64,000 nt of DNA from the NCBI RefSeq assembly GCF_003575965.1, contig NZ_QWJJ01000010.1, positions 62,001 to 126,000 on the forward strand, written 5' to 3'. This DNA comes from Pseudooceanicola sediminis (GTDB lineage: Bacteria; Pseudomonadota; Alphaproteobacteria; Rhodobacterales; Rhodobacteraceae). The notes below the pieces were generated by a model, which was given only the letters and a program-made list of their open reading frames with translations, had not been told where the DNA came from and made no database searches. The position numbers and the translations under genes were made by a program. Below are positions 9,566 through 46,321 of the stretch, piece after piece. Within the stretch, counting starts at the first letter, position 1. Each line of letters opens with the position of its first letter.

Positions 9566-10115
9566 AGGGGAGAGCGGAGACCATCAGTTTCCGCGACGAT
9601 CCGTACGCTCAACGTCGCAGTCTCCGATGAAAGGCACCGTCAGACTGGCGCCATCGGTCACCCCGGCAGCGGCGCACGGAGCTTTCTCAGATCACGCTTT
9701 CACCCACTGTCGCGCATCTCCGCGTTTTCATTGGATCGACTGGCGGCAATTCCGCAGGCGTCCCTATCGCCGATCACAATCCTGCGCCTTCGCAGAGGCT
9801 GTTGATCGCCCACGAGGTCAGCCGTTCCGAAATCGCCTTTGCCGCACCAGACGGCAATGACTGGCGCGTTCTCGGCGGCGCGCGAACGGCCGGGGGTCGC
9901 GTCTTGCGGACATGCCTCTGTCTCGCTTGGGGCCGCACTGAGGCAGGTCTTCGGGGCCGGTCTTCGGGGCAGGAAGCGACGGCCGATCACGGGGCGCGGG
10001 TCGAGTGCGCCGCACCGCTCGGAAACCGCTTTGTTACCGCCCGAATACCGACGTGCGGATCAGGCGTTTTCAAGAGGTTAGCCTGCTCTCAGCCGGAAAG
10101 ACCGACATTGCGCCC
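9566..10115. other. 550-bp region without a recognisable gene
   Basis: Several frames of 65-145 codons cross this stretch on both strands, but none resembles a known family and none has a good start. Codon texture differs from the neighbouring genes. It could be a decayed gene or a regulatory spacer; I cannot tell which. Confidence 0.5.
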
Positions 10116-26887: not shown

Positions 26888-27805
26888 TCAAGCGAAAATC
26901 AACGAGCTGAGCTTGCGACGACCGTTCAGGGCAATCGGATCCTGCGGCTTCAGCGCCTCGAAAATCGTGAAAAGCTGAGCCTTTGCAGCACCTTCGTTCC
27001 ATTCACGGTCGCGGCGGAACAGCTCCAGCAGCTGATCGACGGCCTCCTGCACCTGCCCTGCGGCATGCAGCGCGAGCGCGAGGTCAAAGCGCGCCTGGTG
27101 ATCGCTCGGGTCTGCCTCGACGCGGGCGGTGAGCTCGGTCAGGGGTCCGGCGTTGGCGGCCTGCCTGGCCAGCTCGATCTGGGCGTGGGCGGCTTCGAGT
27201 TCGGGTGCCGTCGAGATCTGGGCGGGGGCACCATTCAGGATCGCTTCGGCCTGCTCGACATCCCCGAGAGCGAGGTGCGCACGCACGAGACCAGAGTAGG
27301 CGGCGACGTTTTCAGCGTCTTCCTGAAGGATCGCCTCGAAGGTCTGGGCGGCATCGGCGGCGGCGCCTTCGGCCAGCATTTCTTCTGCGGCTTCAATGGC
27401 TTCGGCCAATCCGTCATCTTCGCCGGGGGCCATCGCGGCAAGCTTTTCAACAAAGGCCTTCACCTCGGAGCCGGGCACGGCCCCCTGAAAGCCATCGACG
27501 GGCTGCCCCTGAAAGAAGGCATAGACCGTCGGGATCGACTGGACACGCATCTGGCCCGCGATCCCCTGGTTTTCATCGACGTTGATCTTGGCCATCAGGA
27601 CCTTGCCGCCCTGGGCGTTCACGGCCTCTTCCAACTGCGGGCCAAGGGTCTTGCAGGGGCCACACCAGGGGGCCCAAAAGTCAACGATGACAGGCACTTG
27701 CTGCGAGGCCTCGACGACCTCCTGCATGAAGTTGGCCTCGTTGACGTCTTTGACATACTTGCCCGCGGGGGCGGGGGTCTTGGTGCCGGTTCCAAGCTCG
27801 ATCAT
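26888..27805 (-). CDS. thioredoxin-TPR protein (CnoX/YbbN-like)
   Basis: A 305-residue protein with an N-terminal thioredoxin domain (active site FWAPWCGPCK, C48 and C51) and a C-terminal helical repeat region from about residue 130. E. coli CnoX has this layout and acts as a holdase linked to GroEL; it lacks the active CxxC, whereas here CGPC is intact, so real redox activity is likely. The frame extends 52 codons upstream into non-coding sequence; MIELGTGTK at 27805 is the likely start. It leads the LON/Trm112 operon. Confidence 0.92.
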   Translation of the reverse strand: MIELGTGTKTPAPAGKYVKDVNEANFMQEVVEASQQVPVIVDFWAPWCGPCKTLGPQLEEAVNAQGGKVLMAKINVDENQGIAGQMRVQSIPTVYAFFQGQPVDGFQGAVPGSEVKAFVEKLAAMAPGEDDGLAEAIEAAEEMLAEGAAADAAQTFEAILQEDAENVAAYSGLVRAHLALGDVEQAEAILNGAPAQISTAPELEAAHAQIELARQAANAGPLTELTARVEADPSDHQARFDLALALHAAGQVQEAVDQLLELFRRDREWNEGAAKAQLFTIFEALKPQDPIALNGRRKLSSLIFA

Positions 27806-28578
27806 GGCGGAACTCCCTTCAGATGCTTGGCCTCTATATGCACCTTGGGGCGCGGTTTTCCAAGATGCCAGAAGGGCGCGGAATGCGGTTCGGTTAACCA
27901 ATCGTGGCGCGCCCGCGGTGCCGGCCCTGTGCAGGCTGGCAAGCGCTTGGGTTAACGGCAAAATCCAGCGTCGGTGTCAAAACGGTATCCGAGCGGTATC
28001 ACGTCGGTATTTGTGCGGTAACCGGGAAGAGGTTAACGGAGCGGGCGGTGGGGGTTTGTTAACGAGATGCCCGTCGCCGGGCAGACCTGCGCGGCGGCGC
28101 CCCTGCCCCGCCAGCCTGCCGGGCAATTGCAGAGGTGTCGCGCCGCGATGCGGATCGACATGGCGGAACAGACGGCCCCGGCGGCGTGGCGCCCTTCGCA
28201 AGGCAGGATGACCGGGCAAGGACCGGACACGGTGGCGTGCAAAGGGCGGCGGGGCGCGGACACTGGCGGCGCCTGCGGGGGCGCAGCGGGCACAGGCGCA
28301 CCATGCAGAGGCGGACATGCAGAGGCGGACAGGCGTGGCCCGAGGGCGAGGGACAGCCCTGCGCCGTCCGCCGTCGCGGCCCCGGCCCCGGCAGGGCCAT
28401 TCCGGCGCAGAGTGATGGGCCAGAGTGATGAGATTACAGGCGGAATTCGGCAGAAGATCGGCCCGCGCGATCATAAGGCGCGCAGGATCAGAACCGCGCC
28501 CCGTGCAAGGCTGCCATACCTTGTGTTTGCGCCTGACGCGCGGCTATCTGGGCCGCAAAGGCCTCAGAAAGGTACCCT
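27806..28578. other. 773-bp intergenic region with phased repeats
   Basis: No convincing gene is seen on either strand. The region holds four GTTAAC sites (27893-28062), the 11-bp CGGTAT array (separate entry), and a 14-bp direct repeat ATGCAGAGGCGGAC twice in tandem (28303-28330). From about 28060 on the plus strand is notably G-rich. Frames of 80-190 codons here have no family resemblance. Confidence 0.6.
27972..28026 (+). repeat. phased array of five 11-bp CGGTAT-type units
   Basis: Units start at 27972, 27983, 27994, 28005 and 28016, exactly 11 bp apart: CGGTGT, CGGTAT, CGGTAT, CGGTAT, CGGTAA, each followed by five variable bases. A second array of the same motif and spacing, on the minus strand, lies at 46278-46321. 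One unit per helical turn suggests side-by-side protein binding. Confidence 0.8.
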
Positions 28579-29997
28579 ATGCGAGACGAACCCCGCGACC
28601 AAGAGCCCGCCACGGCAGCACAAAAGCTGATAGGGGGGCTGCTGGCAGGTGTCGTGGTCTTGGTCATCCTGCGCAGCTGGGTCGACTGGTGGGTGTTCGA
28701 CGCCCTGGCCAATGCCGGGACGGTCGCCGCAATCGCATTGCTGACGCCACAGGTGCGCTGGTCGCGGCAGATCTTTGTCGTGCTGGGGCTGGCGCTGGTG
28801 GCCTATGCCTGGATCGCCGCACCGGACCAGGCGCTGGCGGTTCTGGGACATGCGCTGGAACGGGCCAGCTTTATCCTGGCGTTCTTCTGCGCGCTGGCGA
28901 CGCTGCGCCATACGGCCGAGATTTCGGCGGCGATCACGCGGGCGGCGGTGTTCCTGGCGCAACAGCCCCCGGGGCGGCGCTATTCCGCGCTGGCGCTTGG
29001 CGGACAGACCTTTGCGCTGGTGCTGAACTATGGCTCGATCTCTCTGCTGGGCAGCATGGCGCGCACCAGTGCGGCGCGCGAACCGGACCTTGAGGTGCGC
29101 GCGATCCGCACGCGGCGGATGTTGCAGGCGGTGCATCGCGGGTTTGCCGCCAGCCTGATGTGGTCGCCGCTGAGCTTTGCCATCGTGATTTCGACAACCG
29201 TGGTGCCGGGGGCCAGCTGGGGCGCGATCCTGCTGCCTGCCGTCGGGTCGGCGGCGCTGCTGACCGGCATCGGCTGGGGGCTGGACAAGGCCTACAAGAG
29301 CAAGCTGGCACCGGGGCGGGTGCCGGTGCGCGACCGGTCGCACGACGATCATGCGCGGGTGCTGCTGCCGGTGCTGTGGCTGCTGGGGCTGATCGCGGGG
29401 CCGGTGGCCCTGCTGCATTTCACGACGGGACAGTCTGCGTCGCTGTCGGTGCTGAGCGTGGTGCCGGTGGTGGCCGGGCTGTGGCTGCTGATCGGCGGGC
29501 CGGTCGGGGCGCGCGGGCGGCATCTGGGCGGGCACGTCGGGGCCTTCGTGTTCCGGGAGCTGCCGGCGTTCCGGGGCGAGATCGTGCTGCTGACGATGGC
29601 CGGGTTCCTGGGCAGCGGCGCGGGCGCGTTGCTGGCGCCGGTGGTGGCCGCCAGCGGGCTGGACCTGACGGCGATCCCCGTCTGGGTCTTGCTGCTGCTG
29701 CCGATCTGGCTGATCCCGCTGGGCGGTCAGGTGGGGATGAACCCGATCCTGTTCGTGTCGCTGTTCGGCCCCCTGTTGCCCGCGCCCGAGGTTCTGGGGA
29801 TTTCCCCGACGCCGATGGTGCTGGCGCTGACGGCGGGCTGGGCGCTGTCGGGCGTGACCTCGCCGTTTACCGCGTCGGTGATGCTGATCGCGCGGCTGGG
29901 CGATGTGACGCCCGCCGACGTCAGCCTGCGCTGGAACGGGGCGTTTTCACTGATCTGCGCGCTGGTGCTGTCGGTCTGGGTGCTGCTGCTGGCCTAG
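28579..29997 (+). CDS. polytopic membrane protein, putative permease
   Basis: A 472-residue inner-membrane protein with about ten to twelve hydrophobic spans. The C-terminal half ends GWALSGVTSPFTASVMLIAR, recalling ion-transporter-superfamily (CitMHS/ArsB-like) proteins, but I do not recognise the family. The first 15 residues are charged and cytoplasmic. Base use is odd: the coding strand is G-rich (GTG, CTG, GGG codons), while other plus-strand genes in the window are C-rich. It stands alone, between a long spacer and convergent xth. Confidence 0.7.
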   Translation: MRDEPRDQEPATAAQKLIGGLLAGVVVLVILRSWVDWWVFDALANAGTVAAIALLTPQVRWSRQIFVVLGLALVAYAWIAAPDQALAVLGHALERASFILAFFCALATLRHTAEISAAITRAAVFLAQQPPGRRYSALALGGQTFALVLNYGSISLLGSMARTSAAREPDLEVRAIRTRRMLQAVHRGFAASLMWSPLSFAIVISTTVVPGASWGAILLPAVGSAALLTGIGWGLDKAYKSKLAPGRVPVRDRSHDDHARVLLPVLWLLGLIAGPVALLHFTTGQSASLSVLSVVPVVAGLWLLIGGPVGARGRHLGGHVGAFVFRELPAFRGEIVLLTMAGFLGSGAGALLAPVVAASGLDLTAIPVWVLLLLPIWLIPLGGQVGMNPILFVSLFGPLLPAPEVLGISPTPMVLALTAGWALSGVTSPFTASVMLIARLGDVTPADVSLRWNGAFSLICALVLSVWVLLLA

Positions 29998-30020
29998 GGC
30001 GGCGGCGCGGCCCGGCGCCA

Positions 30021-30060
30021 CCCTGCCCTGCCCTGCCGTGCCCGACCCTGCCCTGCCCGG
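30021..30060. repeat. CCCTG pentamer tract
   Basis: Eight 5-bp units run from 30021 to 30060, five of them exactly CCCTG and the rest one or two bases off. It fills the gap between the membrane-protein gene and the xth stop codon. It is a simple-sequence tract with no known role. Confidence 0.7.
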
Positions 30061-30849
30061 TTACAGGTCGAAGGTGGCGAAGACCGGCGCGTGGTCGGAG
30101 GGTTGTTCCCATCCGCGCACGGCCCGCATGATCGTGCTGGAATGCGCCGCGTTCGAGATATCGGGCGTTGCCCAGACATGATCGAGGCGACGGCCCTTGT
30201 CGGCCGCATCCCAGTCGGGCGACCGGTAGGACCACCAGGAATAGAGATTGCCCTGGGGGATGTCCTGCCGGGTGATGTCGACCCAGGCACCGGCATCCTG
30301 CGCCTGGGCCAGGTGCTCGACCTCGACCGGCGTGTGGCTGACGACGCGCAGCAGCTTCTTGTGATCCCAGACGTCATCCTCGCGCGGGGCGATGTTCAGG
30401 TCGCCCACCAGGATCGCCTTTTCAGGACGCTCGGCATGGAACCAATCACGCATCTCGGTCAGGTAATCGAGCTTTTGGCCGAACTTCTCGTTGATCGCGC
30501 GGTCGGGTTTGTCGCCCCCGGCTGGGACGTAGAAATTGTGGATGACGACGCCGTTTTCCAGACGCCCCGCGATGTGGCGGGCATGGCCCAGGGCCGCGAA
30601 ATCCTGATCACCGACCTCTTCGATCGGCAGTTTCGACAGGATGGCGACGCCGTTATAGCCCTTTTGCCCGCGGGCGATCATGTGGGTGTAGCCAAGCGCG
30701 TGAAAGCGGTCGCGCGGGATCAGGTCGACCGGGCTCTTGCATTCCTGCAGGCAGAGCACGTCGGGCCCGGCGGTTTCCAGCAATTGACACACCAACGCTT
30801 CGCGCAGGCGGACGGAGTTGATGTTCCAGGTGGCGAGGGTAAATGACAT
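30061..30849 (-). CDS. xth: exodeoxyribonuclease III
   Basis: A 262-residue AP endonuclease/exonuclease III of the EEP family, which repairs abasic sites and 3' blocks in DNA. Motifs seen are TWNINSVRLR, LCLQECK (metal-binding Glu), GDLNIAP, and the C-terminal RRLDHVWATP and QPSDHAPVF catalytic blocks. The length is normal. It is transcribed towards the membrane-protein gene and has 326 nt of non-coding sequence ahead of it. Confidence 0.96.
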   Translation of the reverse strand: MSFTLATWNINSVRLREALVCQLLETAGPDVLCLQECKSPVDLIPRDRFHALGYTHMIARGQKGYNGVAILSKLPIEEVGDQDFAALGHARHIAGRLENGVVIHNFYVPAGGDKPDRAINEKFGQKLDYLTEMRDWFHAERPEKAILVGDLNIAPREDDVWDHKKLLRVVSHTPVEVEHLAQAQDAGAWVDITRQDIPQGNLYSWWSYRSPDWDAADKGRRLDHVWATPDISNAAHSSTIMRAVRGWEQPSDHAPVFATFDL

Positions 30850-31175
30850 GTTCTTTCACTTGCCTTGTTCGGATCGCGGAGCTTGGCCTTTCGGGTATCA
30901 TCCGACACCTGACAAGGAAAGCGATCCGTTTCTTGACCGGCCTTGCGCCGAGCCTTGTGCCGCGCCTTGGGCCGGTGGGGCCGCCGGTCTGCGATCGCCT
31001 TCACCACGTCGGAGAGGCGCTGCACAAAACCCCGACGGTCGAGGGCCGGCAGACGGGGCTGGGCGCGGGACGGGCCTGGGTGCGGGGCGGATCTGACCGG
31101 CGGCGGCCGCTAAAAATCTCTCCTTAACGTCCCGGCAAGGGAATGGCGGTATCGCAGATCCTGAAAGGGACGCCG
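30850..31175. other. intergenic region with three 12-bp direct repeats
   Basis: Between divergent xth and the small membrane protein no gene is recognised. Units GCCTTGCGCCGA, GCCTTGTGCCGC and GCCTTGGGCCGG lie in tandem at 30940-30975. No clear -35/-10 pair is seen. Confidence 0.55.
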
Positions 31176-31475
31176 ATGCAGAAAATTGTCATCTTCCTGA
31201 CCATCCTCGTCATGGCCGTGATGGGCCCGGCGGTGATGGTGCTGTCGCTGCCTGCGGCATCGCACGGGCTGGTGCTGGTGCTTGGCCCGCCATGGGCGGA
31301 CCGCGCACGGGCCATCGAGGGTGCGGGCGGGCGTGGCATCGGCCCGGTCACCACCATCGTGGCGTCCCTGGCACAGGCAGACAACCCCGATTTCGGCAGC
31401 CGGATGCGCGCGGCAGGCCCCTTTCTAGTCGTCGACGGTCAGGCCGTCGCCTCTCTTTGCGGAGTCAGCGGATGA
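31176..31475 (+). CDS. small membrane protein coupled to chemoreceptor
   Basis: A 99-residue hypothetical protein. Residues 4-35 are hydrophobic ([20 protein letters not shown]), so it is either a signal-anchored or exported protein; the rest is soluble. I do not recognise the family. The frame opens 11 codons earlier, but ATG 31176 has AAAGGGA 7-8 nt upstream. Its stop overlaps the start of the chemoreceptor gene by 4 nt (ATGA), so the two are translated together and may work together. Confidence 0.65.
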
Positions 31476-33082
31476 CAACCAACAACCTGGATTTCCACGC
31501 AACACGCACCCTGGCGACAGTGCGCATATCGCAGGCGACGCTGGCGCTGGTGCCCCTGTCGCCCGTCGCCGCGATGCTGGCGGGCAATGCCTTTCTGCCC
31601 GTGCTGATCCTTGCGGTGGTGATGGCGGGAATCGGACAATACGGCGCCTATGTCCAGGGGTTTTCGGGGCGCGTTCTGGTCGCTCTGGGGCTGATCGGGC
31701 AGGCCATGGCCTTTACCGCCGCGCTGGCAGGGCACCCCTGGCAACTGGACAGCCACATGTTGTTCTTTGCGCTGCTGGCCATCACCATGGCGATGTCGGA
31801 TGCACGGGTGATCGTAATCGCCGCCGCCGTCATTGCCGTGCACCACCTGTCGCTGGCGGTCATCCTGCCCGGCATGATCTATCCGTCCAGCGACCTGCTG
31901 GTGAACCTGCAACGCACCGCCCTGCATGGCGTGATCGTGGTGATCGAAGCCGCGGTACTGTTCCTGTCCATCCGACAGCGGCACGACCTGGATTCCCGCG
32001 TGGCCCAGGCGGATCGGTCGGCGCGCGAGGCGATGCAGCGCGAACAGCAGAAATCCGAATCGGCCGCAATGGCGCAGGAGGCCGTGGTCAACGGATTGGG
32101 CGCGGCGCTGAAACGCCTGGCCGAACGCGATCTGAGCGTGACCATCGACGCGGAGTTCGACCCGTCGCACGACAAGTTGCGGCAGAATTTCAACGATGCG
32201 ATCCGAGAGCTGCGCGACACCGTTCTACAGGTGGTGCGCAATGCCAGCGCGGTGTCCGAAGATGCCGATGCCATCGCCAATGCTTCCAACAACCTCGCGC
32301 AGCGCACAGAACGCCAGGCCGCGTCCCTGCAGGGTACGGCAACCGCCATTCAGGAAATCAACGCCAATGTCCGCGCCACCGCCAAGGCCGCCCGCAGCGC
32401 CAGTACCGTCGCGGACGAGGCCCAGTCGCAGTCCATCCAATCTGACGAGGTGGTGCAGCGCACCGTCGCCGCCATGGCCGAACTCGAAACCTCGTCATCC
32501 GAAATCTCCAACATCATCAAGGTCATCGACGACATCGCCTTTCAGACAAACCTGCTGGCGCTGAATGCCGGGGTCGAGGCGGCGCGGGCGGGCGAAGCAG
32601 GGCGTGGATTTTCCGTTGTCGCGACCGAGGTGCGGGCGCTCGCCGCGCGGTCCTCGACCTCGGCCAGAGAGATCACGGCGCTGATCTCGGCCTCGGGCGA
32701 GCATGTCAAGAATGGCGTGGCACTGGTCAACGAAACCGGCGAGGCCCTGAAACGGATCGCCGATTCGGTGGCGAATGTCGCCGGGCTGGTGGCGCAGATC
32801 GCCTCCTCCGCCAACGAACAATCCGGTTCGATCGCGCTGATCGACGATACCATGAAGGAACTGGACCAGGTCACGCAGGAAAATGCCGCCATGTTCGAGG
32901 AAACCAACGCCGCCTCGATCGCGCTGAACCGCGAAGCCGAGGAGCTGAGCGCGCTGATGAAGCGGTTCCATACCGGCGCTGGCCGCCCCGCCCCGCGTCA
33001 GGTCCAGGCACCGCGCCAACAGCCCCGGCAGGTCGTGAACAGCGTTCCCACCGCCAGCAGCGATGGCTGGAGCGAATTCTGA
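31472..33082 (+). CDS. methyl-accepting chemotaxis protein
   Basis: A 536-residue chemoreceptor. Residues about 25-175 form a polytopic sensor with six or so membrane spans, including [19 protein letters not shown], instead of a periplasmic domain. A HAMP-like stretch follows ([19 protein letters not shown]). The signalling hairpin is intact, with [20 protein letters not shown] and [15 protein letters not shown], the CheA/CheW contact tip. There is no CheR-binding pentapeptide; the end is Pro/Gln-rich. The start is fixed by the ATGA overlap and a GGAG site. Confidence 0.92.
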
Positions 33083-46277: not shown

Positions 46278-46321
46278 ATTTTTCACCGTTCGCTTACCGT
46301 CGAGATACCGTCAGGATACCG
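46278..46321 (-). repeat. phased array of four 11-bp CGGTAT-type units
   Basis: Read on the minus strand, CGGTAT (46321-46316), CGGTAT (46310-46305), CGGTAA (46299-46294) and CGGTGA (46288-46283) are exactly 11 bp apart. The same motif and spacing are seen at 27972-28026. It lies just upstream of the flavoprotein gene and downstream of the crotonase gene, both on the minus strand. Confidence 0.8.

Follow-up and report, generated by a model that had tools for sequence, protein, structure and literature searches.

Arrays of 11-bp phased CGGTAT-type units are oriented elements that typically head polar GC-skew domains in Rhodobacterales

In Rhodobacterales, arrays of CGGTAT-type units repeated at 11-bp steps form a family of oriented, mostly intergenic elements, which are orthologous between two species. 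Each array typically heads a polar domain, in which silent sites of the array strand carry more G. We propose, at somewhat less than even confidence, that the arrays are protein-bound, oriented sites from which a directional DNA process starts, and that this process is most likely recombination accompanied by strand-biased conversion.

Results

A five-unit array and its flanking modules

The array lies on the + strand at 27972..28026 of the window, which is the whole stretch of 64,000 nucleotides of Pseudooceanicola sediminis DNA analysed here. Its five units start at 27972 (CGGTGT), 27983 (CGGTAT), 27994 (CGGTAT), 28005 (CGGTAT) and 28016 (CGGTAA), the first and last being core variants. Reading of the sequence confirmed the exact 11-bp phasing and variable linkers that the initial annotation had described, and also the several GTTAAC sites it had placed close by, as four of the five in the window stand at 27893, 27951, 28032 and 28058. 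The array neighbours are a gene for a thioredoxin-TPR protein of 305 aa (26888..27805, − strand) and a membrane-protein-like open frame of 472 aa without Pfam match (28579..29997, + strand), which diverges from the thioredoxin gene.

The left module (27950..27971, + strand) consists of GGTTAAC, a short A-rich stretch and CGT abutting the first unit, and has variant forms in Pseudooceanicola spongiae and in the genus mate G001. The right module (28031..28063, + strand) reads GGTTAACGG[A/G]GCGGGCGGTG.GGGTTTGTT, and is nearly identical in P. spongiae although the preceding units have changed. An additional GTTAAC (GGTTAACC, 27892..27899) is found on the thioredoxin-gene side, where P. spongiae reads GATTAACC.

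In P. spongiae, the orthologous site carries four different units flanked by GTTAAC modules of identical type, and G001 has an array with spacings of 11, 11, 11 and 12 as judged by eye. A close ortholog of the thioredoxin gene occurs in 21 genus genomes, and the array is kept beside it in three of them; a two-unit remnant is possible by eye in another (G019), and no array was seen by eye at the 17 further loci. The initial annotation had made its reading depend on retention in near relatives, where the outcome is mixed: the array is retained in P. spongiae and one more genus mate, with none seen at 18 of the 21 genus loci. It had also required such arrays to exceed shuffled sequence, and they do so by far. 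Across 200 copies of the window shuffled by a first-order Markov model, CGGT repeated every 11 bp occurred 0.04 times per copy with three units and never with four, while the real window contains seven three-unit and four four-unit overlapping matches.

These matches come from the array at 27972 (+) and from two others, 46321 (−) and 10050 (−). The second array (four units, 46284..46321, − strand) lies between two same-strand genes and faces the 27972 array. The third (four units, 10013..10050, − strand) lies 65 bp past the stop codon of an RNA pseudouridylate synthase-domain gene, and has an ortholog array in P. spongiae.

Spread of arrays across genomes

The P. sediminis genome has 200 three-unit CGGTR matches at 11-bp steps, as compared with none for a reversed-pattern control. 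In 464 kb not selected for arrays (positions 1–400,000 of contig C1 plus the window), 13 arrays of at least three units were found, 12 of them outside called genes. The nearest named genome, P. spongiae HQ09 (91% protein identity, roughly 83% DNA identity), has 100 four-unit CGGTR matches (99 distinct), and P. sediminis has 76. Three more genus genomes have 69 (G015), 12 (G017) and 6 (G001), making 5 of 23 with arrays by the strict pattern, and the remaining 18 have no four-unit array by that pattern.

A looser CGGT pattern is found in 26 of the 295 family genomes, although 12 of them have one hit each and some of these hits are chance-like. The strong holders in the family besides P. sediminis are G327 (113), G287 (48), G197 and G262 (22 each), G165 (18), G306 (16) and G314 (12). 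Six of 31 genomes sampled via named loci (31 of 80 loci) match as well: Salinihabitans flavidus with 113, Shimia haliotis with 15, HIMB11 with 4, and the rest with 1 or 2. The strict CGGTAT pattern matched none of 380 Alphaproteobacteria genomes outside the family; the same class draw held five family genomes, of which P. sediminis alone matched.

Three genomes (G221, G191 and G330) have dispersed arrays with another core, TGGC, in a unit of about GCGTMTGGCAT. These came to light because TGGC is CGGT reversed, the control pattern. Incidentally, perfect 11-bp tandem repeats of other kinds also match the patterns (G307:C81:240181 and G260:C32) and are unfit for array counts. No more than a few hundred bases separate several P. 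sediminis arrays from a contig end (G000 C1:134, C2:72, C2:192951, C3:243, C10:502 and C10:144027), as if assemblies perhaps often broke near arrays.

The initial annotation had viewed the array as a local set of protein half-sites on one DNA face. A phased one-face array does fit, but the array is not local, being a member of a dispersed, oriented chromosomal family.

Unit anatomy and turnover between species

Among 56 P. sediminis arrays, the triplet preceding the first unit is mostly CGT (0.89, 0.95 and 0.96). Many of them carry, by eye, one of two classes of left module. Class A reads CTAAGCCCTTGAAAACGC..GATTCGAACGT. Class B reads GGTTAAC..GAAAACGCC.AAATCGCAACGT, with GGTTAACGCAGCG some 15–30 bp past the array. 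A rough script rule left 19 of the 56 unassigned, and put the 27972 array in class A; we read it by eye as class B, because GGTTAAC stands on both its sides.

Comparison by eye of P. sediminis with P. spongiae shows that the CGGTAT core is retained whereas the 5-bp linkers have been rewritten species-wide. This bears on LexA (SOS) boxes, which likewise form an 11-bp direct repeat in alpha-proteobacteria, given as GTTCN7GTTC or GAACN7GAAC in an excerpt of a published study (PMC3091678). Many P. sediminis and P. spongiae units do read GAACGGTATCTGAAC, but their GAAC falls in the variable linker and the kept part is CGGTAT. GAACN7GAAC is not kept: GAAC is missing from most arrays listed for other genera, and its place is taken by CGTC in S. 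flavidus, G015 and G287 (most of the arrays listed) and by CGTC or CGTA in G221. As the arrays are also rare in divergent gaps, it is very improbable that they are LexA boxes.

Array positions were mapped between the two species via blastn matches. All 23 P. spongiae arrays of at least four units with a counterpart P. sediminis sequence have an array there in the same orientation, an agreement helped by the fact that most stretches were chosen for arrays on both sides. The strict caller found 21 of the 23, in the same direction and within 700 bp; the other two are an array with a 12-bp step (C1 380.8–381.0 kb) and an array with one changed unit (C1 from 134). In P. sediminis sequence not selected for arrays (C1 and the window), 8 of 8 are orthologous, 6 of them strictly. 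Reverse mapping gave a P. spongiae counterpart for 21 of 22 arrays. The exception (L068 4995) has no array at the P. spongiae counterpart, possibly by recent gain or loss.

Such retention of positions (23/23 and 21/22 mapped arrays) at roughly 83% DNA identity is hardly expected of a mobile or selfish MITE-like repeat or of a product of tandem slippage, even though the copies are many and dispersed and the 12-bp-step array is present in three ~90-bp tandem copies (C1 380,818–380,998). Linkers differ between units, no long shared sequence was seen, and neither the insertion polymorphism nor the shared ends of MITEs were found. We regard this origin as the least probable of all those considered. 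Another close pair of arrays is located at C4 114,601 and 114,693 (L036).

Genes beside arrays are shared as well. Within 400 bp of arrays, 30 reciprocal-best neighbours were found in P. sediminis and P. spongiae against 6.4 expected, under the same selection of stretches. Between P. sediminis and G221, two array-side genes were near arrays in both against 0.62 expected, which is not significant (p 0.11); both pairs agree in side and direction, whereas the pairs with G287 do not. These comparisons across genera, aimed at the binding protein, gave a few shared loci, which is not a significant number, and did not reveal the protein.

Placement and orientation on the chromosome

Of 149 arrays in five genomes, 10 lie inside a called gene and 4 lack a called neighbour on one side. 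Among the remaining 135, 53 lie between converging genes and only 19 between diverging genes. For comparison, converging genes flank 41 of 245 background gaps of at least 60 bp in P. sediminis and 62 of 445 in P. spongiae (103/690 together), with genes called by our own codon-usage caller trained on the P. sediminis genome, rather than by standard annotation. No clear direction bias was observed among genes farther off (2–6 genes away).

This placement disfavours a promoter or operator reading. A transcriptional role, whether as operators, promoters or terminators, would account for the conserved left modules with TTGA-like boxes and for three or four arrays that precede an intrinsic-terminator-like sequence by eye. 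However, divergent gaps hold few arrays, the distance and orientation of arrays relative to genes vary, and a transcript effect would hardly span 10–30 kb over genes of both directions, making the role improbable.

In P. spongiae, arrays are spaced at a mean of ~44 kb and more evenly than random (CV 0.72; 1 of 5000 random sets as even). The mean gap is 30 kb between diverging neighbour arrays and 53 kb between facing ones, a difference reached in 244 of 20,000 permutations, and the number of orientation runs along the chromosome is like random. With dnaA (3.05 Mb in P. spongiae) assumed to mark the origin and the opposite point at 0.87 Mb, the replication-leading orientation is taken by 55 of 99 arrays in P. 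spongiae, 9 of 20 in G221 and 2 of 12 in G314. In the terminus-side 40% of the P. spongiae chromosome, 26 of 37 arrays are leading. Long runs of mostly same-direction arrays extend over 0–0.92 Mb and 0.995–1.56 Mb there, with a flip near the presumed terminus. That flip, near 0.95 Mb, raised the suspicion of a replication-oriented sign, which the whole-chromosome counts do not support.

Arrays could instead be chromosome-architecture signs, where a loop extruder or DNA translocase is loaded or meets a polar barrier. The excess in converging-gene gaps (53/135 against 103/690), the even spacing and the closer approach of diverging neighbours (30 versus 53 kb) would suit such a role. On the other hand, orientation is not tied to the origin–terminus axis overall (55/99 leading), the run number looks random, and such a role alone would not alter silent-site composition in the way described below. 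We consider it unlikely, ranking after the packaging explanation discussed below.

Polar GC-skew domains

The most telling trait was not visible in the single-array picture of the initial annotation, namely the polar GC-skew domain. Of 146 arrays in five genomes, 142 have positive GC skew downstream when it is read along the array strand, and 4 do not. Among 204 single CGGTATC motifs lying apart from arrays, downstream skew is positive at 103 (46/93 and 57/111). The positive fraction is 49/50 in P. spongiae, 13/13 in P. sediminis C1 1–400,000 plus the window, 39/41 in chosen P. sediminis stretches, 19/20 in G221 (core TGGC), 13/13 in S. flavidus and 9/9 in G287. Arrays with less than 2.5 kb of downstream sequence were left out, so that 50 of 56 were used in P. 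spongiae and 41 of 42 in the chosen stretches. When orientations were flipped 20,000 times, the observed mean was reached 0, 3, 0, 0, 3 and 41 times, respectively.

The step in skew at the array is positive in 39/44 arrays of P. spongiae, 11/13 of P. sediminis C1 plus the window, 30/37 of the chosen stretches, 18/20 of G221, only 8/13 of S. flavidus and 7/9 of G287. At single CGGTATC sites it is positive in 43/108 in P. sediminis and 43/64 in P. spongiae, so nearby arrays or chance supply part of the step in the latter. In P. spongiae, mean GC skew is about 0–0.025 between −10 and −4 kb, reaches +0.09 at the array and then holds at about +0.08 to +0.11 over 9 kb downstream. In P. sediminis, it is 0.01–0.06 upstream (few arrays past 5 kb) and 0.08–0.09 downstream. 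G221 shows an equivalent step, and S. flavidus and G287 show a step too, on a higher baseline.

Silent sites give a finer profile when 127 arrays are pooled. Upstream, skew is 0.048 at −10 kb (47 arrays), 0.006–0.029 from −9 to −4 kb, and then 0.040, 0.073 and 0.108; downstream, it is 0.132 and 0.163, peaks at 0.185 ± 0.012 at +2 to +3 kb, and declines to 0.137, 0.114 and, at +9 kb, 0.092. Thus skew ramps over about 3 kb ahead of the array, without a sharp step at the array. The maximum falls in the same 500-bp bin (+2.5 to +3.0 kb) for P. sediminis, P. spongiae and G221, with a drop past 3 kb, which suggests a local component of about 3–4 kb besides the long one. Along P. sediminis C1, skew follows a saw-tooth course, jumping at arrays and decaying within roughly 20–30 kb, and facing and diverging arrays give N-shaped skew domains. 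An array-free control (200 kb of one genome, G014), in which no four-base core recurs exactly in four units at 11-bp steps, lacks a saw-tooth but nevertheless shows a few strong local skew bins.

In the window, the polar domain of the 27972 array covers 27972..32000 (+ strand) by distance bins. Skew is +0.129 (0–2 kb) and +0.031 (2–4 kb) downstream, and then negative toward the facing 46321 array; upstream, it is +0.020 (0–2 kb), −0.029 (2–4 kb) and −0.049 (4–6 kb). The positive skew spans only about 4 kb here, and the two facing arrays bound an N-shaped domain. The 46321 array has +0.110 downstream, yet also +0.05 to +0.13 upstream, and at the 10050 array skew is −0.003 for 0–2 kb downstream and +0.106 over the following two bins. 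Because individual arrays of the window are noisy, the argument rests on pooled arrays.

A gene-direction artefact was rejected, as the effect holds in intergenic DNA (0.001 to 0.101 in P. spongiae) and at third positions in genes of both strands. At fourfold sites, G is up in 24 of 24 neighbour-context rows; T never rises, C rises in one row only, and A mostly falls. Since G rises in every row while T does not, cytosine deamination was rejected as the cause, and so, on the same rows, was a deaminase or other context-specific mutation. A strand-biased downstream octamer of the KOPS or Chi kind was also sought and rejected; k-mers show mainly G excess, with GAG over CTC, a bias that may come from codon structure.

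Replication and packaging as possible sources of the skew

Unidirectional replication starting at arrays, a bacterial counterpart of skew N-domains, would produce N-shaped domains between facing and diverging arrays, and a fork moving away from the array in the downstream direction would give skew of this sign. Array spacing more regular than random (CV 0.72) would agree. Ordinary replication skew, however, is a separate layer. Skew rises from 0.052 upstream to 0.119 downstream for leading arrays in the terminus half (n = 16) and from 0.025 to 0.107 in the origin half (n = 11); for lagging arrays, it rises from −0.013 to 0.059 (n = 6) and from −0.045 to 0.062 (n = 10), respectively. With a step in leading and lagging arrays alike, the array effect adds to the replication layer. 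T/A skew stays low and irregular: it is about +0.04 immediately upstream, near 0 over the first 4 kb downstream and +0.07 to +0.09 at 5–7 kb. Genes 2–6 away lack clear co-orientation, G+C rises, and a sharp step at the array is absent. Replication starts are thus an unlikely account, placed behind the architectural one.

G+C is higher downstream of arrays than upstream. Third-position identity between P. sediminis and P. spongiae is 0.70–0.73 in the bins from 0 to 7 kb downstream (0.655 at 7–8 kb) against 0.61–0.69 upstream, although this lower downstream divergence may merely reflect conserved genes or the G bias. We favour recombination over replication because of the higher downstream G+C, the lower silent divergence downstream, and the ramp over about 3 kb.

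Arrays might also serve as pac-like packaging starts for gene transfer agents (GTAs) or a phage-like terminase, where a small-terminase ring would sit on the repeats, headful packaging would run downstream, and transfer would skew composition over time. Such packaging is unidirectional. The local skew maximum within about 3 kb is near the ~4 kb load of the Rhodobacter capsulatus particle (from an excerpt of PMC6854486), and other excerpts report GTA and core genes within GC-skew peaks (PMC9836097) and discrete peaks in Dinoroseobacter shibae GTA packaging (PMC11841831). The ramp, however, starts about 3 kb ahead of the array, and PF13547 is present in 7 of 7 genomes searched, array-free G014 included. 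P. sediminis has two matches to this gene-transfer-agent tail family (G000:C45:142221 and G000:C35:256944), perhaps two GTA clusters, and the other six genomes have one each. Plasmid records and the phage collection gave no blastn match to a 47-base query, which is a weak probe. A scan of viral_contigs retrieved eight stretches, of which one (L193) has a Rhodobacterales-type array and the others look like unrelated repeats; a phage origin was rejected. Packaging is unlikely on balance, though the least so of the rival accounts.

Discussion

A sequence-specific protein would occupy adjacent 11-bp units along a single face of the DNA. Such a protein-bound array fits the retained core and changing linkers, the step of one helical turn, and the orthology of the sites between two species. 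The putative nucleoprotein would mark the start of a directional DNA process running downstream for about 10–30 kb. The likeliest such process would be homologous strand exchange with a fixed donor strand, in which biased conversion favours G on the array strand. As a rule, C-containing mismatches escape repair, and together with a fixed donor strand this would yield G gain on the other strand. The chain from skew to recombination is plausible, not proven. RecC family proteins are absent from all 23 genus genomes, and no RecBCD difference separates array-bearing from array-free members of the genus. Since 18 of 23 genus genomes lack arrays by the strict pattern, the process would there be either dispensable or tied to other sites.

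Taken as a whole, and with slightly more reserve than the recombination reading itself, we suggest an as yet undescribed class of up to ~100 oriented, protein-bound, 11-bp-phased arrays, each starting directional DNA exchange. Polar domains, each tens of kilobases long, would thereby partition the chromosome and record the exchange in their base composition, with a lineage-specific code (CGGTAT, TGGCAT) rewritten jointly at the sites in step with the evolving binding protein. That linkers and cores are rewritten in parallel between lineages would mean a binding code evolving at many sites simultaneously. Should the directional process prove to be recombination or DNA transfer, the arrays would be its start sites, and the strand record would make exchange readable from single genomes.

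The initial annotation knew of no described system with this signature, and the literature agrees: judged by titles and abstract openings, no paper on such arrays was found in the open-licence PMC literature.

Several known systems are partly alike. Chi, KOPS and architecture-imparting sequences are short single sites, numerous and replication-oriented. They resemble the arrays as oriented chromosomal signs tied to strand composition; here, however, tens to ~100 phased arrays have no overall replication orientation. KOPS orientation follows the replication arm, more strongly toward the terminus; array orientation does not follow the arm overall, though 26 of 37 P. spongiae arrays are leading in the terminus-side 40%. 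Arrays of 3–5 units, one per ~44 kb in P. spongiae and patchy in the genus, differ from the short single high-density Chi site, which stimulates recombination to one side of itself.

Iteron arrays and parC-type 11-bp repeats usually occupy one plasmid locus and are bound side by side by one protein. They share direct repeats about one helical turn apart, whereas the arrays here are numerous, chromosomal and associated with polar domains. Indirect signs, namely T/A skew, gene co-orientation and the replication layer, argue against replication starting at the arrays as it does at an iteron origin. Human skew N-domains have N-shaped skew between facing borders, and CTCF-like boundaries have oriented border sites. 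Both features recur here, but the arrays are bacterial, with ~44 kb mean spacing and another base signature.

Closest are the strong local GC-skew peaks reported in the same order by Koppenhofer, Tomasch and Lang in 2022 (PMC9836097), whose excerpted text describes G-rich codons and core and GTA genes inside the peaks and doubts deamination as their cause. That text places no sequence element at the peaks, whereas here, in other genomes, arrays head the skew domains. The arrays thereby tie these published, unexplained peaks to a concrete, manipulable DNA element.
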